64,000 nt of DNA from the NCBI GenBank assembly GCA_949317995.1, contig OX439050.1, positions 47,741,777 to 47,805,776 on the forward strand. The letters are read 5' to 3'. The notes under the pieces were generated by a model that was not told the DNA's origin, searched no databases, and saw only the letters and a list, made by a program, of their open reading frames with translations. The translations under genes were made by a program, and so were the position numbers. This stretch comes from Acholoe squamosa. Taxonomy: Eukaryota > Annelida > Polychaeta > Phyllodocida > Polynoidae. Shown piece by piece: positions 16,163-63,100 of this stretch (the first letter of the stretch is position 1; each line of letters starts with the position of its first letter).

Positions 16163-16617
16163 GGCGGAGCAGTTGCAACTGGATCTCAATCGGGTGACTC
16201 GCTGGTGCGATGCCTATAAGCTCACTATCAATGTAGAAAAATCAAGATAATGTGGTCCTACATTGATAATGCACCTATGGATACCTCAGAATGTGGAGTA
16301 TTCCTTCATGGCAATGAATTAGAGAAAGTGAGTGACTTCTCATATCTAGGAGTGGATATTGACGAGTCACTAAAGTTCAAGAAATTTTGTGCTAAAATTA
16401 TAGGTAATGATAAAGCAAGAATGTACCAAAACTCAAAAAAAATACGGAAATACATAGACACCAATCTGGCGATTGTATTTTATAGGCAAATGATCCTACC
16501 TTCATTTGACTATGGGGATTATAATCACTGATGGCTTCTCGAAACGATGGAAGAAACATCTTCAAACATTGCAAAACCACTGTCTGCAAACATGCCTACG
16601 TGTTATTAACACTACAG
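16163..16617 (+). pseudogene. Non-LTR retrotransposon (LINE) 3' fragment, 5' portion
   Basis: Broken frames encode pieces typical of the C-terminal end of a LINE reverse transcriptase: a DLNRVTRWC...LTINVEKS segment followed by a stop, then FSYLGVDID...LKFKKF, then a WKKHLQTLQNHCL segment in another frame. Several stops and at least one frameshift show decay. The reading frame is interrupted at 16617 by the Harbinger element and resumes at 25503. The clade (CR1/Jockey-like) is not determinable by eye. Confidence 0.75.
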
Positions 16618-16800
16618 GAGGTCGTTGCACAAACAGCTAGATCTCGTTGTTAAAAAAAAGCCCAAATCAGCGAGATTCAGAAAGAGGTTTTTTTATAACC
16701 GTTGCACAAATGTTTCTGCCTTTCCACAGTTAGACTCGTTATGATTCTCGCTGTGATTTTCTCGCTGTTACCGATGTCCATAGCACAGCGAGAAAAAAAA
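16618..16800. repeat. Left terminal inverted repeat and subterminal motif cluster
   Basis: Outer TIR GAGGTCGTTGCACAA is followed by a second CCGTTGCACAA (about 16679) and several CTCGCTGT / ACAGCGAGA motifs in both orientations. They probably act as transposase or Myb-partner binding sites; that role is inferred from family knowledge. Confidence 0.7.
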
Positions 16801-16919
16801 GCCGGAGACCCTCGTAACTTGACCTAATTGAAGGAGAACGTCACTTCCGGCAAGGAAGGCGGGTCCGTGTTTACATGGTGTGTGGGCTTCGCTGTTTTGG
16901 ACGTAGCCGCTGACTGAAA

Positions 16920-19900
16920 ATGGAATTCCACTCGGCGGATGTAAGTATTGAAAGAACAAAATAGCCCATAATGACCCTCTTTTCAAGTAGAACTCATATG
17001 ACTTTAAGCAGGTAGCTGTCTTTGTCTTTTTCTGCTGTGAAGTCGTTTTCTTCTATGTACACGTTGGGCGATAATAGGGTAAAACAACCTTGCTGTATGC
17101 AATTTTTTTTATCTCTGTCACCCTTGCTCAGAAATAAAAGTGGAAGATAATCTTAGAGCATTTTTTCTCTTCCACTGGGGTAGAGTCCATGCATGAGAGG
17201 GTTTTTTATTTTATTTCTTGCCCCCAACATATAGAAATATGGACCTCTCCTTTCTTTCTCTGGTTTTATGATATTTTCCTTGAGCCATTCTTTATTAGAG
17301 TTATTTATTTTATTCTTTTATTTTCAGGAGCCCAGTAAGTATGCTGCTTCAACAAGTGAAGACTCGGATGAAGGGCAGGACATGGACCTACCGGACATCT
17401 TGAGGACGGGTTACGACAGTGGAGAGGAGGAGGAAAACGAGGAGGGGGAAGATGGAGATAATGGCGATGAAGAATACCAATACGAGGTAGAAGAATCTAG
17501 CTCTGTTTCTTCTGAAGGTAGCTCATCTAAACCACCACCCAAGAAAACTAAGAAATCCACTCCTACCCCTTCTACCTCATCTAACTTAACTTCGTGCGGT
17601 ACAGCCAGGTCGAGGGACCTTTTCTGGACTGAAAATGAACACAGAGCCTTGTTCTTCGTATGTTTGAACCAGAAAGCTCTGTTACGTGCTAGAGGAAAGG
17701 ACAGCTATCGTCTAAACAGAGAAGGATGGGACACAGTAATGGGTGAGTTTTACATCTTTTCTCTCCTTTTCTTAAAATTTACAGCAGTTGAGACCTAAAA
17801 ATATATCAAGAACCATGCTCTGTCCTTATCCCTTTGTAGCTTGTATATTTCTTTTTCTTTCTTTCTTCCCTTTATTTTAAAAGTAAATTGAATTTTTAAA
17901 TGAAACTTCTATTTTAATTTTTTTTCCTCAGCCACTGTCAACAGCATCAAAAATTCAAACCGTGACCTTGACAAGACCAGAAATCACGTTAATGACTACT
18001 TCTACAAGGTCAAAGCCAAGGTAAGCTTTCTAAGTTATTTCTCTGTGCTTTTCTATAAATAAGATATGACGTAAAAAGCAAGAATTACCTTCCCTTCTTC
18101 AGTCACCTTTCAATGGATATCCTATGCCTTGTCGTCATGTCAGGTGATATGAATGGGTATAACTAGGTCACACTACTCTTTACATAACATAACGTAAGAA
18201 CAGTCTGACGATTCACAACAGAATTTTTAATTTGTCTCTTCTCATCTCGTCCTTTTTTTATTGTTTGTGTGCTAAGATAAAACAAGACCTTTTTTTCCCC
18301 CTGAAAGAACGAGGAAATGCTGGAGCTGATTGACAAGGGGCATCAAGTCGAGGGGTGCACCTTCGTTGAAGTCATGTGCCTCAAGTACAAGGGGGTTCAT
18401 CGCATTGCCGGTAAGAAAAATTCAAACTTTCGTCTCTCCTCTCTCAGAAGCTATGTGATGCACACAAAAAAAAAGACACCTTACCTTCTCATATCTTTTT
18501 CCTCTCTCTTGTGCTAAGAGTCCTCGTAATAATCACGAACCTTCTCTGCTTAGCCTTTCCTTGTTATAATAAACCAAAAAAAATAAAGTACTTTCCTACA
18601 CTTCACCTTTTTGCCTTGACAACCCTTCTCTCGTTTAATTATCCTTATAATTTCTTTTTTTTTTCTCTCCAGACACGGGAGGCCGAGTGCTGTATTATAC
18701 AGACAAAGTCGAGGAGGAACGGAAAAAAAGGAAGCTAAAACAGTCTCCTTTGGGCAAAAAGAAACCGACAGGTGCAGGTCCTTCGCCGGGTAAGATACTG
18801 GTGGTTCCAACGGACGATGAGCTGTTGTCTGAAAATGTAATGGACTTCCCTGTAGTGAAGAAAGCGCAACCTGTCCAGACGAAGAAAACTCCAGTAAAGA
18901 AAGCAGTTGTCACCAAGAAAAAAAAACCCTCTCCCGCAAAAAAATCCCCGGCGGTTAGTTCTAAGGCAGGTGTTAAAAAGGTTCCAGTGTCCAAGGCAGT
19001 CCCAAATAAAGCAGACTCATCGAAGGCGCGTACCAATAAGGCCCTTACCTCGAAGACAGCTGCTTCTAAGGGAGGGACCTCTAAGGTCGGTGTCTCACAG
19101 TCTACATCTGTAGCAGAAACCAAAACTTTTAAGAAGCCGGGAAGGCGGGCTGTTCGTAACGTGGCTTCTCTTCAAATCGACCTCACAACAGATGACATGG
19201 AAGTAGACATAGTAGAACGTGAAGACGCCGATGAAGTTGATGTAGTTGACCTTACAGGCATAAAACAACAATTGCCTTACACTTCTATCCCAAAATCCGA
19301 TTCCTCTAAGTCAGAAGGTCCTTCCCCTAAAGGAAAAGCAGCACTGCTAGAAGGTCGGAGACGTAGCCCACAGTTAGCAGGACATAAAGCAGAACCGCCC
19401 AAGACGAACAAGAAGTTGACCTTTTCTTCTGGGGAACCGTCTCAAGACACAGCTGGAGAAGACGGTGGGCAGATGTTCCAGGTATCTTCAGCAATGGAAA
19501 CTCGCCTCGCAAAGATAGAATCTCTTGTTATCAGCATGGAAGAAAACCGACGGGCATCAGAGGAAAATCTTACGTCTGTTTTGAGGAGGTGTGCAGATGT
19601 GCTGGAGAACATTCAGGGTCAGAGGGAAGCAGTCATAAACACTCAAGCCATATCAAGCCGAAATGTGGCGCAGCTGATAAACGGTAAGTTTGGGGTAGCA
19701 AAACAACCGGGTCCAGAAAAAAGATACAGTGTAAATTTCATTGCTTTCAGGCACACAAGATTTTTGATGTGTTCTCTCGTTCTGTGAAAACTAAACAGGC
19801 AATTTCTACATTTTATTATCATAACAAAAAATATTTCAATGAAGAAGGTACACATGAAAGTGACATGTCCAGACCAGAGATGAGAAAAACTAAAATTCTG

Positions 19901-21719
19901 TTGTGTTATTAAAAAAAATATTGTTTGTTTAAAGTTTTCTGTCTTTTCTGTCTTCACAGTATGTGGAAAGCTGATTCATTTGACGGAAGGCCGCCAATTG
20001 CCTTTGGAGAAGGTGACTGAATCCAGCCAGACACCCGATTTACCACATCTAGTGACCCAACCTCTCGCAGTCCAGGAGAGCACCTCAGGCCAGTTGAAAG
20101 GTAGGTTTCTAGTCTGGTTTCTCTTCTATGTGACATCGGGCTTCCCTAGCCCACTTAAAAGGGTGTTTTTCTCCTCTTTTCTATCCCCTCTTATGTGTGT
20201 GGTGCACATATGCGTGGGAACTTACACATTCCTTTGTTAAATTGTGTGATGTAGTTCTCCCCATGAATATGACCTTAGCTGTCGAAATGCCGTTAAAAAT
20301 CTATCACTCAATCACTCTATGTGACATGTTTCTTGGGAGGGGGTTTCCTTGAGCATAACTAAGTGTCACATTTGTCTGTCACTTAAAACCTGACATGTCT
20401 TCACCTGGCTGTCATAAGAAGAAAGAAAATAAATACACCAAATATCCTCTCGCTCTTACATTTTCTTGTTGTGTTTTCCAGTTGTGTCGTTGGATGGGCC
20501 TAGCACAGACAACTCCACCTTGCTTCATGTTAATGATGACGGAAGGCTCGTTGTGGGTCCTTCTGTTCAAGCGGGGTCTCATCTCTCTCTCTTCAAGGCA
20601 GACTATATCCCAAGTGGACCTCAACCGGGTTCTAGTACAACAACAGAGGCAGAGCATCCAGGGGACCAAGAGGACACACAAGACGTGGGTATGACATTAG
20701 CTGCACAACAGTCATCTGCCCAAGACCTACAGTCCTCACAAGAGGGTGCTCCAACACAACAAGAAACGACAGAAGAGGCAGAAGCTATTTTGGACAAAGA
20801 CGGCACGCTACAGGAAGGTGAAATAAAAATCGACACAGAACAGCCAGGCACAGGGGAGGACCAGACCACACAACAGCCGCCTGCAGTGAATATAGAGCCC
20901 ATAGAAGAGCCCAGCACAGGAGAGGAACAGACCACAGAAGAGCCCGGCTCAACAGAGCACAAGACAGAAGAGCCAGGCGCAGCAGCGCAGCAGACAGAAG
21001 AGCCAGGCTCAGAAGAGCACCAGATGGAAGAAGGGACAGCAGAGCACCAGACCAATGAACAGGCAGCTGCTACAGAGCAAGAGACCACACAAAAAACAGC
21101 TGCCACAGAGCACCTTACCACAGAACACTTGTCAAAAGGTGAAAATCACACCACACAAGAAGTACCAGTTTCACAAGACATAAAACCTGTGGAGTCAGCA
21201 GGAACAGACCTACAGACCACACATACGCATGTAGAACAAGGTACTTTGGCCTCGGCAACGACTACCCTTAACACAGACAATTCTAATTCTAATGATTCTC
21301 TCTTGGGTGTCACCTCAGATGTGCATGAAGGAACTTTGGGATTGGGTATCATAATAGGATCTAGTGCAAGAACTAGATTGCGCCCCATAAAAGAACATTT
21401 TCATTCCACTCGACACAACATAGATTTGACGGAGGGCTCTGTGGCTGTGTATTGCAAATACCTTAAAGAGGGAACAACAAAACCTCATCAGAGTCCAGAA
21501 AACAGCGCAGTACTGGAAGCTGCAAAGACGTTAGGTAGCATGCATTTGGCTACAGACAATGATAACCCATCTCCAGAGGAGGAGAAAGCACAGGAAGTTT
21601 CCCAGGAGGAGGAAGAAAGGCCAGGCCCTTTGACAAGGAAGAGGGTGGCTGGCAACGGCAGTAACAGAACAAATAAGAAACCTAAGCGAGGGAGGGGAGG
21701 AAAGGTGACAAGGAAATAA
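16920..21719 (+). CDS. Large Myb/SANT-like protein of the Harbinger element (7 exons, 1005 aa)
   Basis: Exons 16920-16940, 17328-17742, 17932-18020, 18308-18410, 18673-19683, 19960-20100 and 20482-21719 join by GT-AG introns into 3,018 nt with one stop. Residues about 8-75 are acidic and Ser-rich. A Myb/SANT (trihelix) domain runs about 105-210, with tryptophans near 107 (LFWTENEH) and 141 (EGWDTVM), then KTRNHVNDYF and a CTFVEVMCLKYKG helix. A Lys/Ala/Ser-rich histone-H1-like stretch lies at about 235-370, a predicted coiled coil (METRLAKIESLV...) at about 480-545, Glu/Thr/Gln-rich imperfect repeats built on TEEPG at about 640-740, and a basic nuclear-localisation-like C terminus (KKPKRGRGG). 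It probably binds the element's ends and brings the transposase to the nucleus, as smaller Harbinger partners do; this is inference. An ATG seven codons before the first donor was chosen because exon 2 joins it in phase 0. A SINE sits in intron 6. Confidence 0.82.
20137..20315 (+). mobile_element. SINE copy 1 (in intron 6 of the large Harbinger gene)
   Basis: Begins CGGGCTTCCCTAGCCCAC, contains GAATATGACCTTAGCTGTCG and ends in an ATCACTCAATCAC tail. It is flanked by a perfect 12-bp target-site duplication TCTATGTGACAT (20125-20136 and 20316-20327). Homologous copies lie at 27716-27896 and 42598-42658. It postdates the Harbinger element. Confidence 0.88.
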
Positions 21720-22395
21720 AAAAAGTATCACATGGTGTGTTTCTCCAGGATAAAGTTGATACCTAAGTCAAAGAGAACATTTTTTTTGTTCAACCTTTTT
21801 TTTTGTCTGTTCATGACCGTCACTTCTTCACTGAGATGGAAATACCATGTTTGTTATGCTTCAGTTAAAGTAAAATCTCAGGTCTTATTTTTTCTGCCTT
21901 TCGTCATAGACGATTGAGATCTATAAGCATTAACATCCAAGACATTTAAAAGTGCCTTCATATATACAGCATGTGGTATGATTAAGACCACCGTTCATAA
22001 GGAGTGTAACATCAAGGGAATTTCATCTACAAATAGGTATAAGAGTTGTTGAAGGCAAACATTAAAGGTGTCTGCTCACAATCTTTAGAATTTCTTTTTT
22101 AAATAAAAATTGTGTCCTTGAACCTTATCTTTCCCTTATTCTTTCTTCCTACTTTTAAAAGAATGATTTTCCTTAAGAAAGAAAACATATTATACAGTAA
22201 ACAATTACAGTTAATAATTAAATCTAAATATAATGTCAAAGAAAAATGAAAAGAAAAGTCGAAATATTACTTTCCATGAAAGAACGAGACTTGAACAAAC
22301 AAACCTCGTTGTGCACAGGGGGCGCCACTGTGCACAGTAAGAGTGACGTCATTTTTGGTACGTCGTAAGCTACAGAAAGAGAGGAATAAGCGGAC
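21720..22395. other. Intergenic spacer between the two Myb-like genes of the Harbinger element
   Basis: An AATAAA overlaps the stop codon of the large gene and another lies near 22103. The region just upstream of the next gene has a short palindrome, CTGTGCAC around GGGGGCGCCA (about 22310-22338), near its likely promoter. No reading frame of note. Confidence 0.5.
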
Positions 22396-23205
22396 ATGGA
22401 GAGCAAAAAAGTGAAGGTGAGCACAAATAAAACATTAATGTGTCCATATTTTTCCCCAGGAAGGATAAAGTAAACAGAAATAGCCATATTACCTCCCTGA
22501 AAGGAGTCTAAGTCATAGGCCACCCGCCCCCACTTTCACGACGTTGCACAACGAGAAAATGCACGCAACGAGATTAGCATGACAAATCTTGTTGTGTTAC
22601 CGGTATTATGACACTTTAAACCTCCTTCTGCCTGCCTGCTATATTTCTTTTATGTGACACTTCATTGGGGAATAAGAGGGACCAAATGGGTTAAGCTTTT
22701 AATGGAGAATAGTTTTTCTTTTATTTCTTATGCACAGGTTACCCTTAGGAAGCCCATTCCAAAAAGGAAGAAGATGCAGATGATACTTAAACCAGTGGGA
22801 GATGTTTCATGTGATTCCATGGCTTCTACCGTAGAGTACATTCCACAGAACTCAGAGAACCCTGTAATAGACCATGACAATGAGACATTAGTGGGGGAAG
22901 CTAGTGCTGCAGCTGACCAAGAGTCTAATGCTAGCTCCTCAGACAGCGAGGACGAAGACCTGCCTCTGTGTGAGGATGTTCCTATTAACCGAGAGAGATG
23001 GTCCAAGCAGGAGGTTAAGGCGTTGATGGACGCTATCAATACAAACAGGCCTGCTTTGAAGTACCACTTCTCTGGGACTGGAGGGGGCCGTGATATCAGG
23101 AGGCAGGCTTGGAGAGACGTTGCACGTGAGTCATGTGATAAATCTTGTGTATGTGAGTTTATTCCACACCCAAAAAAAAGAAACAAACACACATTTTACT
23201 CATGA
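22396..23205 (+). CDS. Short Myb/SANT-like protein of the Harbinger element (2 exons, possibly truncated)
   Basis: Exon 1 (22396-22416) is ATG plus six codons, the same length as exon 1 of the large gene, and has a phase-0 donor. Exon 2 starts at 22738 after CACAG. The protein has a basic segment (PIPKRKK), an acidic Ser-rich segment and the first part of a Myb/SANT domain: RWSKQEVKALMDAI, then a tryptophan in RQAWRDVA. A good donor at 23126 interrupts the domain at exactly the place and phase (1) used by the large gene after WDTVM, but I find no matching downstream exon before the convergent transposase gene. Read-through gives 162 aa with a short Lys-rich tail. It may be a truncated duplicate, a natural short isoform, or an original partner gene that lost its 3' exons. 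Its 3' end overlaps the likely poly(A) signal of the transposase (TTTATT on plus, 23157). Confidence 0.62.
22541..22580. repeat. Internal TIR-like motif within intron 1 of the short Myb gene
   Basis: CGTTGCACAACGAGAAAATG is followed by CAACGAGATTAGC. The right terminus read inward has CCGTTGCACAAT then CACGAGATTAGC. The shared pieces suggest an internal copy of the terminal binding motifs or a remnant end of a related element. Confidence 0.55.
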
Positions 23206-23419
23206 AGAATTTTTAATGTGGACTTAGACGCTGCTACTTGAGTTAACTGTTTCTAGCTGTGCGTGTAACATAACAAGGACAAGCAGACTTACTTTGCATG
23301 CATACATTTGATGGTAGGAACTTAAGAATTATTTCTGATTTACTACAAGATGACGGTTTATATACAATTGAACTATTTACATAAGTCATGCTGATACAAG
23401 TGCTGTCAGGACACAGAAT

Positions 23420-25194
23420 TCAGAAGTAATTTTGGCAGTAGTCATTCCTGAAGGCCTTGATGCGGTTGTTTTCTTGTTCCCTTGTGCGCTGCCTGGGCTG
23501 AAGAAGGGGAAGCCTGACTGGAGTCCATGGATCAGCGGGGTCGTCCACTATGCGGATTCCATGATCTAGGGCGACATTATGGAGACACACGCAGCTTGTG
23601 ATGATCTCTGAACACCTTTTAGGCTTGTGCCGGAGGTACCCAGCAGAGGAGTCAAGTATTCTGAAATTTTCATGAAAAAAAAAATGTAAAAAAAAAAATT
23701 AGAAGTTCAAGGAGTAGGACTGATTACAAATTTTCCCAAGTTTTCCATGCTGGTATAAAAAAAAAGGGGTTCTCTGTGTGAAAACAAAAGGAAAGAGAAA
23801 AGAAGAAAGGGACATAAGGCCTTTCTTACCTCCACCGCTGTTTCAGGATCCATATGCTCTGTTCCACCCTGACACGACTCTTCTTGTGCCACTTGTTGAA
23901 GGCTGTTATCTTAGGCGACGTCTCATCCTTGAATGGAGTGAAGAGGTTGCGACGTAGGCCATACCTAGAAAAAATGTTTATTTTCACTTAAAAAACCCCT
24001 ATAAAATACAGCAAACTAAGGGAGAAATAATATTTCTGTTGTGCTGATTATTAACAGATGGCTTCTTTGTCTGGAACAAACATTTCTTTTTTTAATCTAT
24101 GGTGACAAAACAGACAAAAAAATTACTCACCCTGAGTCTCCAAGCAGGACGAAGTCTCCCCATTTCTCCTCCTCCAGCTCATCCCCTACCGGGCTGCAAG
24201 CCAAAGCGTATGAGTCGTGGACAGAGCCAGGGAAACGTGGATCGGCAAATATTATCCTCTTGTCGTAGTCACACACTATCTGAAGGAAGAAATAGACTAG
24301 AGTGAGAAAGCTGAAGAAATAAAATACATTCCTTACATGTTTCTTTTTATTTCATTGTCATAAACAAAAATTGTACGAAATATATAAAAGAAATTAAAAA
24401 TAAAAATAAAACATGAACAGAATACTTACTGTGGTATTGATAGAGTGATATCCGTTCCGATTCACATACGAGCTCTCGTTGTCTGAGGGGCACTGAATGG
24501 GGATATGGGTCCCATCCACGAATCCAAAAACGAAGGGGGTCTTCTGCTCAATCTCTTCTCCCCCGTTCCTTTTTACCTTGTGACGGTACAGCTTGAGAGC
24601 TGCTTGGAGCTTTGCCTCAAAACTGTTAGGCCATCTGATGAACTTGTTCCGGTTGCGGTAGAAGAACCCAGCCACATCCTTCACAGAGTTGCAGACTACA
24701 GACTTAGAGACCTTCTGTGAATCCCCAGTCAAGCTATAGAAGCTACCCGTGGCGAAATAGCGAATAACTAAGCAGAACTGCAAAAGAAAAAGAAATCAGT
24801 CTTTTTACATTGACGTACATGAAGAAGGATTTTTTTGCAGGACTCTATAGAAAATTAAGAAGAGGACTAAGACATGAATTTTATATGGGGGATCCCTGTG
24901 AACCCCCCCCCCCTAGCGTATGGAATGTTTTTTTTTTAATGAAACTAACCAAAGACAGACAAGTGAGGGGAGAGATAAGGTTCGATACATTACCCTGTCA
25001 ATGTAGGACAGCCCTCCTCCACGTTTGGAGCCCTTAAACTTGCTGAAGAGATTGTAGTCCTCTACCAGCTCCTTGACAACCTCTTTGCTCAACCGGTAAC
25101 GGGCAACAAACTCATCATCAGTGAAAAGAGTAAAGGGAGTGTCCCTTTTCTTACATTTCCTCCTCTTTCTTCCTAGTCTATCCCTGTCTGCCAT
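23420..25194 (-). CDS. PIF/Harbinger DDE transposase (HARBI1-like), 5 exons, 357 aa
   Basis: Minus-strand exons 25194-24994, 24777-24430, 24279-24131, 23964-23830 and 23660-23420 join in frame into 1,074 nt. Residues 1-70 are basic with a helical segment (YRLSKEVVKELVEDY). A helix-turn-helix-like part follows (RYFATGSFYSLTGDSQKVSK). The DDE_Tnp_4 core shows VDGTHIPIQCP (D155), DPRFPGSVHDS (D205), LGDSGYGLR and VRVEQSIWILKQRW (E267); these are the expected catalytic acids. HARBI1-type proteins are about 350 aa, so this is full length with no stop or frameshift. It would cut and reinsert the element at short CWG/TWA-like targets. The start is the ATG following a GKMADRD context; upstream frame extends but has no better ATG. 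It is convergent with the Myb-like genes. Confidence 0.92.
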
Positions 25195-25324
25195 TTTGCC
25201 GAGTTCAAATTTCCCTCCTATACTCTGGTTCCAGTGCGAAATGTCACAGCTAGACTCCCCATAGGGACCAATGTTAAACAACCAAAAGGCAGTACGTCGA
25301 GAGTAACTGCCTTTTTTTTTCTAG

Positions 25325-25502
25325 CTGTTGACATAAAAAAGTCGACACAACGAGTTTATCAGAACGAGAAAATGATTGTGCAACGGTTTTATTCTCGTTG
25401 TGCAAAAAGTGGAGGACAAAAACAGCGAGAAAATGTTTGTGCAACGGTAGAGGCAAAACACAGCGAGAAGAGAGCTAATCTCGTGGATTGTGCAACGGCC
25501 TC
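25325..25502. repeat. Right terminal inverted repeat and subterminal motif cluster
   Basis: ATTGTGCAACGG, TTCTCGTTGTGCAA, ACAGCGAGAAAATG, TTTGTGCAACGG and CACAGCGAGAAG occur in succession. The outermost TTGTGCAACGGCCTC is the reverse complement of the left terminus with one mismatch. Flanking trinucleotide is CTG at 25503-25505. Confidence 0.75.
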
Positions 25503-25735
25503 CTGATATGTCTAGAGTAGATTTGCACTGAAACACCTCTTGTAAATGGTTGTTTGAGCACAGAACCGGAACTTTACTGAGCTTGATGTTCAAACTGTCA
25601 AAGAATCCTGAGCTACTGGTGGTACCAGCTAGGAACCTGAAAAGCAATTATAAAATCATCTTTCTAGGGGTGTTTATCTATGGGATCAGTTACCTGGCGA
25701 TGTACAAAGAAGTGATACTAGGGAAGAATTCCTAA
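25503..25735 (+). pseudogene. LINE 3' fragment, resumed after the Harbinger insertion
   Basis: DMSRVDLH, an in-frame stop, then LFEHRTGTLLSL and LLVVPARNLKSNYK continue the LINE protein C terminus that stops at 16617. The frame is kept if one CWG trinucleotide and the 8,885-bp element are removed. Ends near the stop at about 25733. Confidence 0.65.
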
Positions 25736-33187: not shown

Positions 33188-36100
33188 CTTCTGCCTCTCT
33201 GCCTCTCTGTCTCTGTCTGTCTGTCTCTCTCTGTCTCTCTCTGTCTGTCTCTCTCTGTGTCTCTCTCTGTCTCCCTCTCTCTCTCTCTCTGTATGTCTGT
33301 CTGTCTGTCTCTCTCTCTTGAATATATGTCATTCACCGTGCCAATGTGTGACCACAGTAGAGTGGGTTGATTATGTGCTTAATCATTGAATAACCAATAA
33401 CATTTTGGTCTGGAAACTTTTTCATTGAATTTAGGTAATATTGTTGGAATTGCCTGTCCAAATGACACCTTCTGTTCGAGTCGCATTGCCAACACAGCCT
33501 GTGACAATCAGCGCACCTGTCAATGCAGTCCAGGATACTATGTCTATGATGTGGACACACTGTTGTGTCGTTTTCGACATGTTGGTGATCCCTGCTCAAG
33601 TGACTCCGACTGTGCAATGGAGGCAAATTCAACATGTATCTCAAATACCTGTGGCTGTTCATCCCCTTATGCAGTCTATGAAGCCAACTGCCAGCTTTGT
33701 AATTTGACATCATATTGTCCAAGGAATTTGGACTGCTCTGGTGTCATAGCCAACTCTGTGTGTATTGATGGGGTGCTAGGTTGCTCTGGTGGGTATGTAG
33801 TATCAAATGATGGTACTACCTGTAGAGCAATGATATTACTGGAAGATCCCTGCACACAGACCTCAGAATGCACCACAGGGGCTACTTGTGTGCATGATGG
33901 AGTGTGTGCCTGTGGGATAGCTTACAAAATGAGCACAGACCACACAACTTGTGTACCTAGACCACTCGGTTCGGAGTGCGAGGGCTCAGCGGAGTGCGAG
34001 GGGATCACAGGTGCAGAGTGTGGTCCAGCGGGTAACTGTACATGTGGACAGGCATACCTTGAGAATGGCAGCATATGTCGTCCACGGGGAATAAATGAAG
34101 TCTGCACTGAAACACCTGATTGCACTGGGATAAAAGGTAAAATTTTTCTTTTTCTTTTCTTTTTTTTTTGGGGGGGTGGGGGGTGGATTGCATAAGGAAA
34201 TAATTATTGTGAAAATTGAAGGAATACCTGAATATTTCAAAACACTCAATTTGAAGCTGGTAAAGTAATTACTGCTTCACTGTTCCTCCAAAAGACAATC
34301 CACATATGATTTAAAATAGAAATAGAAAGTGACTTTTGAGGCCGATTTTAAACTTTGGAATCATGTCTAAATAATTTCTGTATTAACTATTGTTAACAGG
34401 AGAGGCTGTTTGTGATTCCTCTGTCTACACTTGTCAGTGTGACCCTGGTTATATTGTCACTGACACAGTCACATGTAGAGCAAGAGGTATTGGAGAAGCA
34501 TGCAACTCAACCAGTAAATGTGGCCTCACCTATTCCTATTGTAAAGAGGGAAAGTGTGTATGTGAACCTGGAGCCTCAGCTGAAAATACAACTTGTGGTA
34601 AGTTCCATTCATTTCTGGATTTCTAAAAGAAATATTTTTTATCTTCCATTATCCTCATGTGACTAAAGTTGCTTAGCCCTGCCCTCCAAACCTAATTGTT
34701 ATTCATGTGTCCAGGAAAATGGTTATAAGTGTTTAGCCGATATTTCCATATGTCAGATTTTACATTACCAGCAAGAAAAAAAGAAATAGCATCATTTTAC
34801 AAAACTCTAATGTTATACACATTGCTGAATCATTGAACAGATAATAAGTGTTTCTATAAGAATGACAAGAATTTAAAAACATATAATTGTCTTATCTGAG
34901 ATCTCAATAAATTGTTGAATTTACAGTGCTAATAGGAGCAAGTCAGTCAAGGTCAGTGAACTTCAATATCAACACAATTTTGTTTCCTGTTACCTAAAAT
35001 AAAGTTTTAACACTTCTTTTTGTGTATTTGATCAGGCAGTATCAAGTATCATTTAAGATGCCCAACAATGACAACTCAACTGATTACTGTTGCATTTACT
35101 GATAGATATAACATAACTAAGAGCTATAATTCTTAAGAGAAAAGGGTAAGTTTCAAGTATTTGCCCATAAAACTCACAATACTCTCACTAAAACAAAAGA
35201 AATTGCTTTTTCATGCATGCCTACATCATGATGGATTACTTCATTATTTTAAACAGCACGAATGTTGGAGGTATGTTTGAAAAAATTACTTCAATCGATT
35301 TGTAAATGTCCCATATAATCATTATTCTTGTTCATTATGCTTTCTTTTTTGTTATAATCTTTTGTTCAACTAATAGATACGACTTTGCTGTAGATGCAGT
35401 ACGTACAGTTGTGAATGACAGTGAAATCAATCTTAATCGGCTGATTAAAATTATGACTAGCATTGCAATACATTTAACTTATATCATATATATGTTAGAT
35501 TTGATGGCTCTGAGTATTTCTTTCAGGAATTGTTGGCGGTGTACTGGGCGCCTTGGCAGGACTTGGAGTTGCATGTGCGACCGGTGTTATGGCTGTTAGC
35601 ATGTCAGCGTAAGTATTACATGAACCTAATTAAAATAAAGACATGTAAATTATATACATACTTGTTTTAAATAAATTGCTAATACTACTTAATTATTTGA
35701 AGTGAGTTGCTTATACCATCCCTGGTAACTGAAATGAATAGTTCATGTGGCTCAACTCTTGGAGGATCTAGAGAATTATATATGACCCCTACAATCAGCT
35801 GACAATGGTTAAGGCAATTTCCTGAATAGGCCTAATGCTTGCCAATAAGGTCTGCATATTGCCATACCATGAGAATTAATTCAGGCACATAGTTTCACTT
35901 TGAATTAATTCCTGACTAATGATAAAGCTACACTATCATGAAACAGTGTACAATATTTATATCCCATTATTCTTCAGGAAAAAACTTGATAAGAACGTGT
36001 TGGATGAATTTTCAATGAATTTGATTGAATACTTTGATATTGCTTACTAACATAGGGAACTTCAAAGACTTCTCGGGAGGTCAAGGTCAGTTTTATAATG

Positions 36101-43600: not shown

Positions 43601-45280
43601 AGGAAGTATTACAGGCTGACTGGTGTTGACTGTTAGTGCCGTTATATTCATTTTTTCGTGTTTTTATTTATGTTGCCAGAAAGTCTTGGATATTATTCTC
43701 ATTTGTTAGTATCTTTTTCATTTTTGGGTCAAATTCTGACCCCAAAATTGAAGTTGCCTCCATTCCCACGAACACGTCATTTCTAACACCATAATTATGA
43801 ACTATAATCGACATTTTATGGCCACCTGCTCCTATTATAATGTCTTTACAGCGTTTGGAGAAAATTGAATGGGATAGATACATGAGAGAAATAATGACTA
43901 TTTCACTTGAGCTTACCCTAAATTTAAAGAATGTTGATATGATGAAGGTGACACAGAGGGCGCCAGTGAATATGTAAACAGCTACTTTATAGTTTGTAAA
44001 CCTCAATGTGAGACCACAGATATCTCTGTAGTGTATGGTGGTCTGTAACACTGCTCCTGTAACCAACTGACTGAAAAAGGGAAAATAAGCATTGAAGTTG
44101 AAAGAAAAAATAATAGCTTAGGTCTTAAATAGGCGCCAGTTTTGGGTAGAGCTTAGTTAAAATACATTAGTACCAGATCACTTATGCAGGACTCTATGGT
44201 ATCAGTCTTCACTTAATTACAACCATAATTTGATTCATGCTTCTGGTAGATGGCTGATATAGTGAGAAATAATTGTATGGGTGACTGCATCTATATTATA
44301 TAAGTAACTAGATCTTGGACACTCAATTTACTGATTGTACTGGAGTCAATTTTCCCCTAATCCTGAACCACGGACAGGACTTCAAGAATCATTGAATCCC
44401 AAATTCGCTTATGAGAATGTAAGCATCAATTTCATCAACTTTTGAAGAATAAAAATTGTTTTCCAAACAGCCATTATTTTTCAATTGGTTTTGTAAAGTC
44501 AATTCAGCCCATTCTCCACCATAACAAACCTCTACCTGATTTGATTAACTATTTAGTTTGCAAATATATCCCAGACTTCATAAAGATCATATAATTCATG
44601 CAGATAACCACTTTGTCAATTTCCTATACTTACAAGGTGGCCATTGCTAGAGCACCCCAGGACCTCTGTCTGGAGTATTTATGCATTTCTGACTCATCCA
44701 GGACTGAGAGTAAGGCTGCATCTCCGAGCGCCCCGATCGGTGACCAGAAAAACTCCCCGATCATTACACACACGAGAATTATTACAAACAGGTGAGATAC
44801 ATCACTCTCAACATAAATCCAATTGATGACTAGTTTATATCCATGTACCAACTCAGACTCTATTTCACTGGTATTTGTCCTGGGAGGCAACCCTGGTGGG
44901 CAGGTGCTGGAATCTTCTGGTGTAGGCAAATTACCAATAATAAGGAAACTTGATATCAAAACTACAATGGAAAGGAGTAAAACCCCTTTTCTAATCCTAA
45001 ACCTGTCTCCTATGGCACCCCATAGAGGTGAGGAGATAGTGCCAAGGACCGGCTTAATGCCATATAGTACTCCGATCTTGGTCGGCGACATGCCGATTTG
45101 TTTGTAAAATACAGATAGGAAGGGAAACAAGCTGGAAATAGCTCCATAGAAGAAGAAATACTGTGCCTTGTATGGCACTAGTCTCCACTCAACCCTCAAT
45201 GCCTCAGGACATCCCCTACAACATGAGTGTAAAGAGTCTGAGACCAATTTTGTCTTTTCATTTTCCTGTTCGGTTGCCAT
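40621..45280 (-). CDS. MFSD6-like major facilitator superfamily protein (7 exons, 533 aa)
   Basis: Minus-strand exons 45280-44634, 44070-43917, 43555-43376, 43031-42920, 42252-42049, 41268-41033 and 40689-40621 join to 1,602 nt in frame. The product is a polytopic membrane protein of the MFS_1_like/MFSD6 group. Exon 1 has a short Cys-bearing N terminus, then YKAQYFFFYGAISSLFPFL (helix 1), IGVLYGIKPVLGTISSPLWG (helix 2 and loop) and SPIGALGDAALLSVL. Exon 4 has the family-like LGFLFWYLEEL. Exon 6 has GTLHGLYWGLGHGCGFLIGG. A cytosolic loop in exon 3 is Ser/Glu-rich (KPSEEELSEF) and the C terminus is acidic (MYDEDEEEE). Vertebrate MFSD6 is longer (about 790 aa), MFSD6L about 590 aa, so orthology is to the family only. 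Substrate unknown. No break seen. Confidence 0.88.
41716..42034. mobile_element. 319-bp MITE with TAA target duplication, copy 1
   Basis: Terminal repeats GGGAGTGATCATTTTTTAAC and its reverse complement at the right end continue for about 32 bp. Both ends are flanked by TAA (41713-41715 and 42035-42037), the 3-bp class used by PIF/Harbinger. The interior is C-rich with repeated TTTTGACCCCCCCC-like segments. Lies in an intron of the MFSD6-like gene. Confidence 0.85.
42598..42658 (-). mobile_element. SINE copy 3, 5'-truncated
   Basis: Reverse-oriented 3' part of the SINE family (TTAACGCCATTTCGACAGCT) with the GTGAGTGAGTGAG tail. Flanked by a perfect 12-bp duplication CTTGCAGAAGGA (42586-42597 and 42659-42670). 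Lies in an intron of the MFSD6-like gene. Confidence 0.9.
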
Positions 45281-45611
45281 TGTGATGGACGAGAAGTTAT
45301 TTGACTCAGCCTTATGGTTTATCAGTTTCTGGTAGGTGCATCGTATCTAAAAAAAAGGAAAGTAGAGATATTATATGGGTGAGATTGACTCATGCAGCGG
45401 AGGCTACAAACATATTTTGACCTTGCTGGTTGGTGTATTGCAGTATTTCATATCTCTTAAGATGGAAATAATTATACCTAATAGAAATGTACTGGAAAAA
45501 GAAATTTATGTATAGGTGGTACATATTCAGGAACAACCGTTGAAAAGGTAATTATGACCAAACTGTATAATACTATGGTCCCACCTTAGAAATAAAGAAA
45601 CAACTCACTTT

Positions 45612-57100: not shown

Positions 57101-60100
57101 TAAAATTCCCGGCACCACCCAGCGTGGTGTGTGCCGCTCGAAGGATATACGCCAACTGACGGTTAATTTGGATCCCGCAGCTTTTATAGGCGCTCACTGT
57201 TTACTATGACGTCATACATACCAATGCGCGGCTGGAGGAAAAGTAGATCCAACCACTGCACATATTAATTATATATATATACACGGGTGTATATAGTCCC
57301 ATAAGTTAATATGTTCGTTGGGAATATAATAATAATAATAAATATTATAATAAATATTATAATAAAAACACAAGTGGAATAAGGAAGGAGACAGTGGGTT
57401 TGGTGAGAATTGACTTAGTCAATATCAATTCTGTACATGCCAAAAACCGCCAAACACAATGGATACACCATTCCACACTATAACATCACATCCAGAGCTA
57501 GTAGGTCTTGCTTAGAATCATGTAAATAATTATATACCACATTAGACTTCCAATTTGCTCTCTTTTTAATGTCATCGACCTTTAACCCAGAGTTCTTTAG
57601 AAGTGTAGCCCCACCATGTCGGAGTGAATGAGTTGAAACTCTGTAGGGAATATCACATTTTATAGACATAGCCTTCAACCTGGTATTAATATAATTATAA
57701 GTTAACGGTTTGTTACATATATTGAATAATAATCTACTTTTAGACTTCTTACAAATTTCCAAGTATCTAGCTGGACAAAGACCAGAATAATCATTTCTCT
57801 TCAAATACACCACATAAGGTTTCCTACCATACTGGTCAGTTTTAGAAGACTTGACATCAATGCGAATGCAGTCAACAGAGATAGAAACATTTTTAGATTC
57901 AAAGTTATGAGGGGAATCGACTACATGACCCACCCTGAACACACCTCGGTAGCACAATAGGATAGCTGACCAGAAGACTACATCCTCATACACAGACAAA
58001 TTCAATTTGGATTGATCTTCAGCATATCACTTGGAGTCAAAGGATTAGTTTTAATAGAAGAACATTTATAATTACGTTCAATACCATCCAGTGTCTTTTT
58101 TACAATAAAATTACCACTATAATCAGAATAACCTTTTAATTTCTGATAATACCATAACGCGGACAAGTAGTTCCGAACAGATACAGGTTTCATTTTATCT
58201 GACAAGTATACACTATACAAAGAGGCTTGAGAAGGAGAACAAGGTAGGGGAGTGAGGTCAAAAATTTTACAAAATTTTTTGTACCTACTAAATTGATGTT
58301 TGCGAACCTTACGTGTGGACTCTGCCACGCCCCTATACAAAAACCTTCTCCTTCTCCGCTCTAGCTCCCTCAGGCCTGGAATTATAACAGCACATGTTAT
58401 ATTCAGTTAAAACATTTCTACATTTCTTTGGGACACCCCTGTAATTTAGCCTAGACAAATGATCAGCTAAAATATTTTCCTCCGACCTAATATAAGTAGA
58501 ATATATTTCAATGTTATGTATAAAACATAGCCAAAAAATTTCCCTCAACCAAGACATACACAACTTATTCTTAGACCTACCGGTATTCAACATGGCCAAG
58601 ACTTGCATGTTGTCCGTAATGCAATGAACTCTGGTATTAGAAAACTTTTTCACCCAGCGCTTAAGGCCTATCATTACTGGATACAGCTCGTAAACATTTA
58701 TATTTCTATGGTGAAGTTTGATATTATCAAGGCTAGGGGCACGAACGAAATGATCTGTACAGTCTACCATAGGATTAGAGTCATTCCAAGTACCATAAAA
58801 ATAGTCTTTATCGAACCAGGCTCCAAAGCCCTGTACAGAGGAATCGGAATACATAGGGGTACATTCATTATCATTTAGAATAATATTTCTACAATTGAAA
58901 ATTCTACAAAAATCCCTCCACCACAGTAGGTCATTTTGAGTTTCCTCATTAAGTTTAATAACACCCCTACTCCTGGCTTTAGCACAAAGATCGAACAATC
59001 TCCTGCTGAAAGTTCTGCCACCACGAACTACTTGGGAGCAGAAGGACATCAAACCACCAATCTTTTGTAATGTCTTCTTAGATACGAATTTTCTACCCAA
59101 ACATTCGTCTATAGCCGAGCTCATTTTATCTAGCTTCTTCTGTGGAAGCGACAACTCCATAGCCGTAGAATCAATGGTTATACCTAGAAAAGTACACACC
59201 TGGCTGGGCTCAGTCACCTTCTCTTTAGATACCACAAACCCTAGATATTCCATACATTCAATCAGGATGTTCCTTTTATGTAAACAATCCTCCTCAGTCC
59301 GAGCTATGATAATAAAATCATCCAGGTAATTTACTATTCTATCTACACCATAAAATTTTGCAATAATAGTCAAAAAATCAGATATTCTACTGAATATATA
59401 TGGAGCACACTTTAGACCAAATGTCAAACGGTTACTTTCAAAAAACTCATCTCCATTGCCAAAATTCCACCTGAAGCCTTGATAGCCTACATGTGGGCCA
59501 TAAACGTTAATACTTCTATATGCAGACTTCAAATCCACCACACACATAAAGTCATTTCTATCAAGTTGGCAGGTAACAGTGTTAATAGAGTTATACGAGA
59601 AGCTTTTGGACGTTGTACTCATAAAGTTATTAATAGAGATATCCGCTGGCATACTGCAATCAGTGATGGGACGAAGCTTACCATTAGATTTTTCCACACC
59701 CCCTAGGGAGTGAATACATTTGGGTTTACATTCAGTTTTAGTAACCAAGCCTTGGTTCAACTCCTCCACAATAATGCTACACATCTCGTCATAAAATCTA
59801 CCTTCTAAAATAGACTTATAATTTTTACAATCATACGTTGTATCACACCCTGGGTCAATAATTTTGAAACCCTCGGTAAAACCACACCATAGAAAATCAG
59901 ACTCAATCTGATTGATATTAATAAGGTCTGACTGCCTGAGAAAACTAGCCAGCCGACACGGGAGTATCTGAGCCTTCCTACCATAAATGAAATGCTCACA
60001 CATACATACCCCATTTACACAACTGTCATAGACCCTGATGCTGGGTCTATTTAAACATTCCACCGTAAAAAGTGGTTCAGCCTCGCCCTGTACTGGGCAG

Positions 60101-63100
60101 CTATGAGAAATAAATAAATTCTTTGACAAATCACAAGAATTATAAATATTTACACTATCATTATTACCATTATCACCCGGAACGATAGAAACGGGGGGCT
60201 TAGGAGGGTCTACCGTACATACTAAATTAAAATCAGGCATCAAATTTTCAGATTTTAAAGTAGGACCCTGCCTAAGGGCTACACACTAATCCTTTTTGTT
60301 CTTCTGGCATTTTTCCTTGCCATGGCTAGGAGAATTACATACATCACAAACATGACGGTATTTACAGGGATCCTCCCTACAGCCTTCAGCTCTATTAAAA
60401 GCAAAACAAGTACGAGCTGACCTAGATTTGGAAGACTTGGACTTTGCCACCTGCCCCTTCTGGGCCTGAACGGTCCCGTCGTAAGACAAATACCTAAGGA
60501 TATCAGAGTTGTCCACCCTCTCAAATGCCTTCAACCCGTTTTTGTTTGCCCTATCCTTTACAGACTTGTCATATTTTGTTAAAGCTGATACCGTATAGAT
60601 TCTTGTACTCGATTTTTCGATCAGCATTTCAAGGTGGTCGAGCAAATGGAAAATATCCTCGCCCTCCTCATATTTGTCTTTCGCAAGACGTACATTTACC
60701 AGCATTAACCGTTCGATACAATCAATTTTAGACTTTTTATCTAAGTAATTCTTCTGATCGAACTCACCCCGGTGCCTTTTACGTGTAGAACGTGTGGTAT
60801 CAGTAGAGGAATCCCTTGAACAAGACGAATTTTTATCCCAATCCGACGACGTAGAACGGTCCCGTCGCCATCTTGGATTCTTGTCGTCATGGCTCCTCCG
60901 GTCACTAGGCGAGCGCTGTCTACGTCTCCCCCGTTGCTTGGTTACAGTGCATTTGGAATCCTGCGTCAAAACATCCCCACGTGAGTCCGCTCGACACGCC
61001 CCTTCTACCGGATTGTTCTGTTTAGCTGCTATGGTCTCAAGCAGATCTTTGATATCAGCAAGCTGGTCTTCCATTACCGTAGTCCTCTCCTCCAAATTGA
61101 TGAACGTCTGGTCAGCAGCTAGACCCAAATTAACTCCTGAAGCTTTTGGAATAGGTGACACTGGGTCAACCATATTTGGATCCGAGCTGCTCGAAGTCCT
61201 AGAGTTGGCCTTATTCCTCGTATTCTTTGTAATTTTCTTGGTACCAGGCTTAGCATTAGCCCCACCTGTCGATTTCCTACCCATATTGCAGGGTATTGTA
61301 CCGTAGAATTCGAAAAAACAAAGATTAAAATTAAAATTCCCGGCACCACCCAGCGTGGTGTGTGCCGCTCGAAGGATATACGCCAACTGACGGTTAATTT
61401 GGATCCCGCAGCTTTTATAGGCGCTCACTGTTTACTATGACGTCATACATACCAATGCGCGGCTGGAGGAAAAGTAGATCCAACCACTGCACATATTAAT
61501 TATATATATATACACGGGTGTATATAGTCCCATAGGATTTGTATAGGAATTGAAAATAGGCTCGTCCTCTGGGCACTATACTTTTTTCAGAGACCGTCCC
61601 TATGGCCAGGACGACTATCTTTGCTCTGCCCTCAAAGGGTTAAGGCATGCTCATGGTCTAAAAGCAACTAAATCTTTACTAATCGGATTAAATCCTTTTT
61701 ATCATAAGGCCCTAATTACAGGCCCATTTGACTGTCAAAAAGAAACGGGAGGGGGATCCCAGGATAATTTCAAAGATTATTCCATCTTGCAGTTTGAGTG
61801 ATCTTGTAATAGAAAATTTGGAATGCATAACATTGGTAACAAATGTTCAGAGAACGATATTTACCTAAGAATTATTATCATTAGGCCTATCTCTGTAATT
61901 CACTTAGAAATATATAGATTTTAATGTAACTCGTTCTGAAAGGTTAATTTGAACATGCCACGTTTTATGCATAGTCTAAAGGTTTTTGGCGGCATTTGAA
62001 ATAAGGATATGATACATTGTAATTATGGAAAATAATATTGAGTGGGCTACATTTAGAACCTTTAGCACTAAGGTCTGTGTTTTTCTGTTTGACTATGCAT
62101 TGGAAGGCTGAGAGTTTGGTTCTTGGTCTGGCCCAGCATGTTGCATTGCAAGTTTAGGATATACCATTCTGGGGCTGGCTACAAACACCTCCAGGAACCT
62201 TGTGGTAGTTTGAGAATAAATTCAAATAGGCAAATGCAAGAACCCTGCGCAATGAGCATGCCTAATAGGGGAATGGCCGACTGAATCTAAGCACTACTGA
62301 GTACAGATACATAGGGTACAAAGACTGCGGTAAGACCATAAAGATGACAGGGGATATCAATCCATCCTATAAGAGCAAGAAGAGTACAGCATGCATTATA
62401 AATGGTACCTACCACAGTTGCATAGTTCTTCTTAGATGTGTCATAGATGCACTCTACAAGAAGGTTATCTCCCTGCAACAGGAATATTCGATACATGTAT
62501 ATGTTGGAGCTATTCTGAATATGGCTAGCATCAAAAACCTGCTTATTATGGTGATTTTTTTTTTTTTAATAATCTTTCATTAAACTCATAAATCTAACAT
62601 TCGTTGTTTATTATGAAGGTACTTCATGAGGAAATATTCTATGGTTACTTTAGAAGATGATATAACTAGTCTGGTTTAACTATACTGGGTGCTTTTAAAT
62701 GCAGCTAGATTTTAAATGCAGCTAAATAAAAGCTTACATTTATGATTACCCTTCCCAACAGTGCTAAGACCACTCTGACAAAGCCTATTCAATTAGTGAT
62801 ATAATCGTATAGAGGAAGTGTAAGTTATTATCTATGAGCACCTGCTACAATCTACAGGATTTCAAACCATATTGACCATTGATCACAACATGTTGGGAAG
62901 GAACCTCCTGGAGAGAACAGGACTGTAATCCCTCAAACCATGTGGATGTTATATGTAGTTAAAATATAGCAGTGCACATTAGGCCTAAAAAATATTCTTG
63001 TGTTCAGATAACATAGCTGAAAAAATTAGAGTAGGTAGGTCGGATTTTATTTTTTTTTTAGATTGTTTTTTTTAAGTTCCTGGATGCCAAAAATGATATA

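Follow-up and report, generated by a model that had tools for sequence, protein, structure and literature searches.

Published accounts present Harbinger elements as transposons with two genes (PMC2836001, PMC9710019). The 64,000-nucleotide stretch of contig OX439050.1 of the annelid Acholoe squamosa analysed here (the window) carries a Harbinger element for which a preliminary description reported three genes. Does the additional, large gene belong to the transposon, and what would it do there? We consider it likely that the element derives from a ~10.1-kb NuwaI-type cut-and-paste Harbinger that encodes a transposase, a small helper (gene C) and a second, large helper (gene A) with the roles proposed below. 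The anatomy, the conservation of the three genes in two families, the geometry of the end sites and the recent activity of a sister family were computed. Coordinates refer to the window, and strand is given where a feature has one.

The element occupies 16618..25502 (8885 bp), exactly as first proposed, and is a deletion derivative of the ~10.1-kb family. The genome (1.48 Gb, 63 contigs) was searched with the left kilobase; 40 copies were scored of 372 candidates, window included, and 20 of the other 39 were fetched. The scored copies were 96–100% identical. All 39 others begin their match to the left kilobase at 16617 or at most 7 bases outside it. The left terminal inverted repeat (TIR), GAGGTCGTTGCACAA, lies at 16618..16632 (+), and the right one at 25488..25502 (−) shares 14 of its 15 bases, so that the matching termini were borne out. 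Both ends were located in 12 fetched copies. Nine of these measured 9,996–10,145 bp, counting one flanking base per end, and the others 9,777 bp (L011), 10,839 bp (L021) and 7,317 bp (L028).

The window copy is shorter because of a private deletion of ~1.24 kb (junction at 23209..23210) within gene C. Exon 1 (22396..22416, +) and exon 2 with the first half of the SANT domain (22738..23125, +) precede it; exons 3–5 and the AATAAA-bearing 3′ end are removed. The deletion measured 1239–1243 bp when the window was compared with L026, L017, L023 and L018, which leaves only exons 1–2 and half of the SANT domain in the window copy. Read to the next stop, window gene C covered profile positions 1–45 of 89 of Myb_DNA-bind_4, with 16.9 bits against a cut-off of 27. 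A genome-wide search for the junction (≤2 mismatches) matched a single site, that of the window, and 15 of the 20 fetched copies keep exons 3–5. The remaining five (L009, L014, L024, L025, L028) also lack these exons, through other losses or an earlier end of the match. As the short helper is truncated, the word 'intact' used for the element in the preliminary description is wrong for the window copy. The window copy would need gene C protein from another copy to move.

In the family, the shorter Myb/SANT-like gene is real. All exons of gene C were present in 12 copies, and it was open at 365–367 aa (amino acids) in five of them (L012, L021, L023, L026, L027). Gene C is thus a 365–367-aa SANT protein in other copies, and the family is ~10.1 kb long with three genes. 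The isolated SANT region scored above the Pfam cut-off (PF13873, 27.2 bits against 21.7), as did that of the sister family (PF13837, 31.7 bits against 27); a comparison of this region with solved structures gave no match. The claim of three genes instead of two therefore stands for the family, while gene C of the window copy is incomplete.

The same trio was found in a sister family of the same genome, with a transposase exon 2 identity of 74–78% to the window family. In the two sister copies read (L049, L050), genes A (+) and C (+) and the transposase (−) had the same order and strands as in the window family. The families share their exon structure as well, and all three predicted genes of L050 were open, with 977 aa in seven exons for A, 364 aa for C and 357 aa for the transposase. 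At the amino acid level, L050 and the window family were 43% identical in A, 59% in C and 81% in the transposase. Between the families, synonymous divergence (pS) was near saturation at 0.75, 0.87 and 0.83, and nonsynonymous divergence (pN) was 0.40, 0.28 and 0.125 (A, C and transposase, respectively). With pN well under a near-saturated pS, all three genes have been under constraint, gene A least. On sequence grounds, the three-gene layout is old.

The sister family has also jumped very recently, in a recent burst. A 1001-bp query from L050 (L050:4000-5000) gave 40 scored copies of 136 candidates with 99–100% identity. Of these, 17, the query's own place included, were identical over the 1001 bp, on 8 contigs.

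Linkage of the transposase and gene A was counted in both families. Among the matches listed for the window family, 39 of 46 transposase places had a gene A no more than 20 kb away and on the other strand, which is the arrangement of the window copy, and 7 did not. The two were 7.7–8.4 kb apart in 27 of the 39 linked pairs. Many copies lacking the large gene, the outcome named beforehand as speaking against it, did not turn up, and the genome-wide search that had been proposed found other copies with the same termini and gene order besides the sister family with the same layout. In the sister family, linkage was found at no fewer than 20 of 60 places; this is at least 20, as L049 has gene A yet was scored as lacking it.

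The element ends carry two classes of repeated motif, in line with the subterminal arrays reported at the outset. Two GTTGCACAA sites (16624 and 16701, 77 bp apart; 16624..16709, +) lie at the left end, and three (25376, 25437 and 25488, spaced 61 and 51 bp; 25376..25496, −) at the right. With ≤1 mismatch, the element held 11 GTTGCACAA sites against 2.4 expected (40 Markov-simulated sequences, maximum 6), and the remaining window held 10. The spacing is the same in the sister copy. GTTGCACAA lies at 8, 85, 10013, 10074 and 10125 in L026 (10140 bp) and at 7, 84, 9740, 9801 and 9852 in L050 (9866 bp), so that the spacings of 77, 61 and 51 bp are identical and the end distances agree within one base. 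Each of these copies has one further internal site.

The second motif, AGCGAGAA, occurred five times in the window, always in the end regions of the element, with 0.1 expected in the element. It forms a left array (16745 −, 16759 −, 16787 +; 16745..16794) and a right array (25424 and 25462; 25424..25469, +). Within 400 bp of the ends lay 5 of 5 sites in L026 and 4 of 5 in L050. A single AGCGAGAA site keeps its place between the families, at distances of 79 and 78 bp to the right end.

The predicted transposase (357 aa, spliced by hand) is open and has five exons with GT/AG borders on the minus strand. Exon 1 (24994..25194) holds the start codon and an RKRRK basic cluster, exon 2 (24430..24777) D155, exon 3 (24131..24279) D205, exon 4 (23830..23964) E267 and exon 5 (23420..23660) the stop. 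It matched Pfam DDE_Tnp_4 with E=1.6e-34 over profile positions 1–158 of 158. The DDE transposase with D155, D205 and E267 was thus present as described, and the sister family has the same residues. No match was found among solved structures. A transposase search also gave more distant relatives at 70, 71 and 56% identity (G000:C6:26780391, C18:28104250 and C4:1843876, respectively).

Gene A, also spliced by hand, is a predicted open gene of 1005 aa in seven exons on the plus strand, all with GT/AG borders, which agrees with the size and exon number first given. Exon 1 (16920..16940) holds the start codon; exon 2 (17328..17742) the acidic N-terminus and the start of a SANT-like domain of about residues 107–168, which continues in exon 3 (17932..18020). 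Exon 4 (18308..18410) is followed by exon 5 (18673..19683) with a basic K-rich stretch and IDLT and VVDLT motifs near aa 377–381 and 400–404. After exon 6 (19960..20100), exon 7 (20482..21719) holds acidic repeats, a partly conserved C-terminus and the stop. Between the families, the SANT-like part together with exon 4 was 66% identical and the acidic repeats 24%. The whole protein reached 15 bits with Myb_DNA-bind_5 and 14.8 bits with Myb_DNA-bind_3, both under the curated Pfam scores. The basic stretch resembles histone H1 purely in composition (K 0.22, A 0.10, P 0.09).

Gene A retains the IDLT/VVDLT pair in both families; gene C and the transposase have no such motifs in either. The VDLT-type pattern was picked after the sequence had been viewed; two or more matches occurred in 0 of 2000 shuffles for the window family and at a rate of 0.0005 for the sister family. 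Motifs of this type bind SUMO, and the pair is putatively SUMO-interacting-like. A scan of viral contigs for gene A relatives gave five pattern matches, none of which was confirmed. Genes A and C were also considered as recent duplicates of each other, which was ruled out by the lack of significant BLASTP similarity between them.

Copies within the window family carry their own changes. Pairwise divergence over the left 2 kb of ten copies was 0.65–2.05% (median 1.35%). Besides the window, gene A was open in 3 of the 14 fetched copies that have its full exon set (L009, L013, L018) and the transposase in 6 of 13 (L015, L017, L019, L022, L023, L027). Polymorphism was sampled in 20 copies for gene A and in 15 each for gene C and the transposase. 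The site-corrected ratio of nonsynonymous plus stop to synonymous variants in singletons, two-copy variants and variants in at least three copies was 0.69, 0.98 and 0.37 for gene A and 0.67, 0.49 and 0.08 for gene C. For the transposase, it was 0.57 in singletons and 0.42 in two-copy variants, with no variants in at least three copies. As the counts are small and the middle class of gene A runs against a clean trend, these ratios were not relied on.

The flanks were compared in 12 copies (11 of the 20 fetched and the window). A CWG triplet borders the left end in all 12 and the right end in 10 of them. In the window, the left triplet is CAG (16615..16617) and the right one CTG (25503..25505), with W unlike the left one. 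Both triplets were equal in seven copies, W differed in three (L015, L021 and the window) and another change separated them in two (L010, L018). The pairs CTG/CAG or CAG/CTG of those three copies are not predicted by a simple target duplication. In the sister family, both ends were read in one copy, L050, which has CAA on either side. The insertion host is an old fragment like a long interspersed nuclear element (LINE), and its frame is unbroken once the flanks are joined minus one triplet. A LINE-like stretch flanking copy L003 has similar residues (CLxTCL...TD) at the insertion point, a weak match (E=0.061).

Two other element types were considered. A Spy-like element, which makes no target duplication, was first suspected from ACA/TGA flanks when the TIR was begun one base earlier; it was ruled out by the 12-copy comparison, in which the flanks are CWG and not AAATTT. 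ISL2EU was ruled out as well: neither THAP nor YqaJ was among the Pfam matches, and the flanks are CWG, not an AT duplication.

How could three proteins work together? By analogy, gene C (~367 aa, SANT/trihelix) corresponds, in both size and domain, to the DNA-binding helper that Harbinger elements usually have. It would bind the repeated GTTGCACAA end sites, nine bases long and in fixed geometry, and bring the transposase there. Every binding partner proposed here, like the function of gene A, is inferred. Gene A probably serves as an adaptor and links the complex to chromatin or to SUMO-rich nuclear sites, with contacts made through its SANT-like domain, its basic stretch and its two VDLT-type motifs. 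Alternatively, it might read the second motif class, AGCGAGAA. A complete three-component machine of a still-jumping lineage can be drawn from this, in which two Myb/SANT-type proteins read GTTGCACAA and AGCGAGAA, the small one delivers the transposase and the ~1000-aa one tethers the whole complex to SUMO bodies or chromatin. In this full form the proposal is speculative, and we regard it as doubtful.

Several results weigh against the NuwaI-type reading with two helpers. None of the 21 copies (20 fetched and the window) has all three genes complete and open, and 14 of the 52 gene A places had no transposase among the matches listed. The isolated SANT-like domain of gene A stayed under the Pfam cut-offs in the window family (20.2 against 21.7 bits for Myb_DNA-bind_5, 20.0 against 23.6 for Myb_DNA-bind_3) and in the sister family (19.3 against 21.7 and 19.4 against 23.6). 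Among solved structures it had two chance-level matches (E 0.56 and 1.2) and no relative. The whole gene C protein gave no Pfam Myb match in either family. The target triplets were equal in 7 of the 10 copies flanked by two CWG triplets, hardly more than chance would give for a two-way base, and the putative 3-bp target duplication rests mainly on the frame continuity across the joined flanks. Finally, common descent could explain why two families in the same genome share a gene that transposition itself does not require. The analysis did not establish the 'multifunctional helper' of the preliminary description, with a SANT-like match under the curated score in both families and an H1-like stretch that is compositional only.

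The main rival gives gene A another role. Gene A could be a regulatory or anti-silencing gene that keeps the element expressed in chromatin and acts outside the transposition complex. The H1-like basic stretch and the two VDLT-type motifs kept in both families are consistent with this. Other DNA transposons carry epigenetic genes as well: plant Vandal elements encode a protein acting on their own silencing, and genes for epigenetic marks are described in TET+ Harbinger and HarbingerS elements (PMC12730594). Pfam revealed no enzymatic domain in gene A, however, and its SANT-like domain is equally compatible with DNA binding at the ends. We give this rival a real chance, though one clearly below even.

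It is unlikely that gene A was captured from the host and rides along as a passenger. In favour of this, the gene is of unusual size and evolves fast over most of its length, with 24–66% identity by region. However, the two families are near synonymous saturation with pN well under pS, they share the same seven exons, and gene A accompanies most of the listed transposase places of the window family, as counted above. No separate host copy was found among the matches listed, all of which fall within the identity ranges of the two families. The three conserved proteins, the sister family and the exact end spacing make gene A look like a conserved part and not a passenger. A composite of a two-gene Harbinger and an inserted Myb gene of another element, to which the seemingly unrelated SANT genes might have pointed, is refuted by the copies, as the same three genes occur in fetched copies and in the sister family and what sets the window copy apart is sequence that was lost, not gained.

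Other features lie elsewhere in the window. A cysteine-rich exon with an EB module (E=4.5e-13) at 33401-34195 (plus) and an exon of a major-facilitator-like transporter (MFS_1_like, E=7e-35) at 44630-45346 (minus) probably belong to host genes. At 57478-61431 (minus), open frames for a reverse transcriptase (RVT_1, E=1.2e-16) and a tyrosine recombinase (Phage_integrase, E=3.2e-10) lie beside a 381-aa frame with no Pfam match. This block is presumably DIRS/YR-type retrotransposon-like.

A conserved third gene together with many identical copies offers a natural system for studying what a second SANT-like helper contributes; end recognition, target choice, silencing escape and nuclear placement are candidates. 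Harbinger proteins have repeatedly been turned into host genes (HARBI1/NAIF1; PMC9710019), so the third protein, too, may be a source of new host genes. A literature search, with Repbase and Dfam outside it, turned up no Harbinger of an animal that encodes two SANT-type proteins. Should Repbase contain families of this sort, the element would be an ordinary new member.

The features of the PIF/Harbinger superfamily (PHIS) are present: a DDE_Tnp_4 transposase, TIRs and a Myb/SANT partner, namely gene C of the full copies. Genes beyond the usual pair link the element to TET+ Harbinger/PHISTA of Puccinia and to HarbingerS of Phytophthora (PMC12730594). As described there, the rust-fungus TET+ Harbinger encodes, besides a TET/JBP dioxygenase, a third protein that has no Myb/SANT domain, and HarbingerS bears a SET methyltransferase, whereas here the extra gene encodes a SANT-like protein with no known enzyme domain.

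Harbinger transposition is reported to require the transposase and a Myb-like helper (PMC9710019, PMC2836001). In zebrafish Harbinger3_DR, a subterminal motif of 9 bp is bound by the Myb-like protein, and nuclear localisation depends on contact between this protein and the transposase (PMC9710019). The present element is alike in having a transposase, a Myb-like helper and repeated 9-bp sites near its ends, here GTTGCACAA (PMC9710019, PMC2836001). It differs in a second, ~1000-aa helper gene, and site binding is here predicted from sequence.

A further close likeness is to the NuwaI group of PHIS. These families have CWG targets and mostly two open reading frames, and average ~4.5 kb (Han et al. 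2015, PMC4482050). By comparison, both families here have three genes, the full element is ~10.1 kb long, and the TIR starts with GAGG (window family) or GGGG (sister copy L050) rather than the usual GGG (PMC4482050). Shared with NuwaI are a DDE_Tnp_4 transposase without any other domain, a Myb/SANT partner, CWG triplets, a TIR within the range of 12–61 bp and an animal host (PMC4482050).

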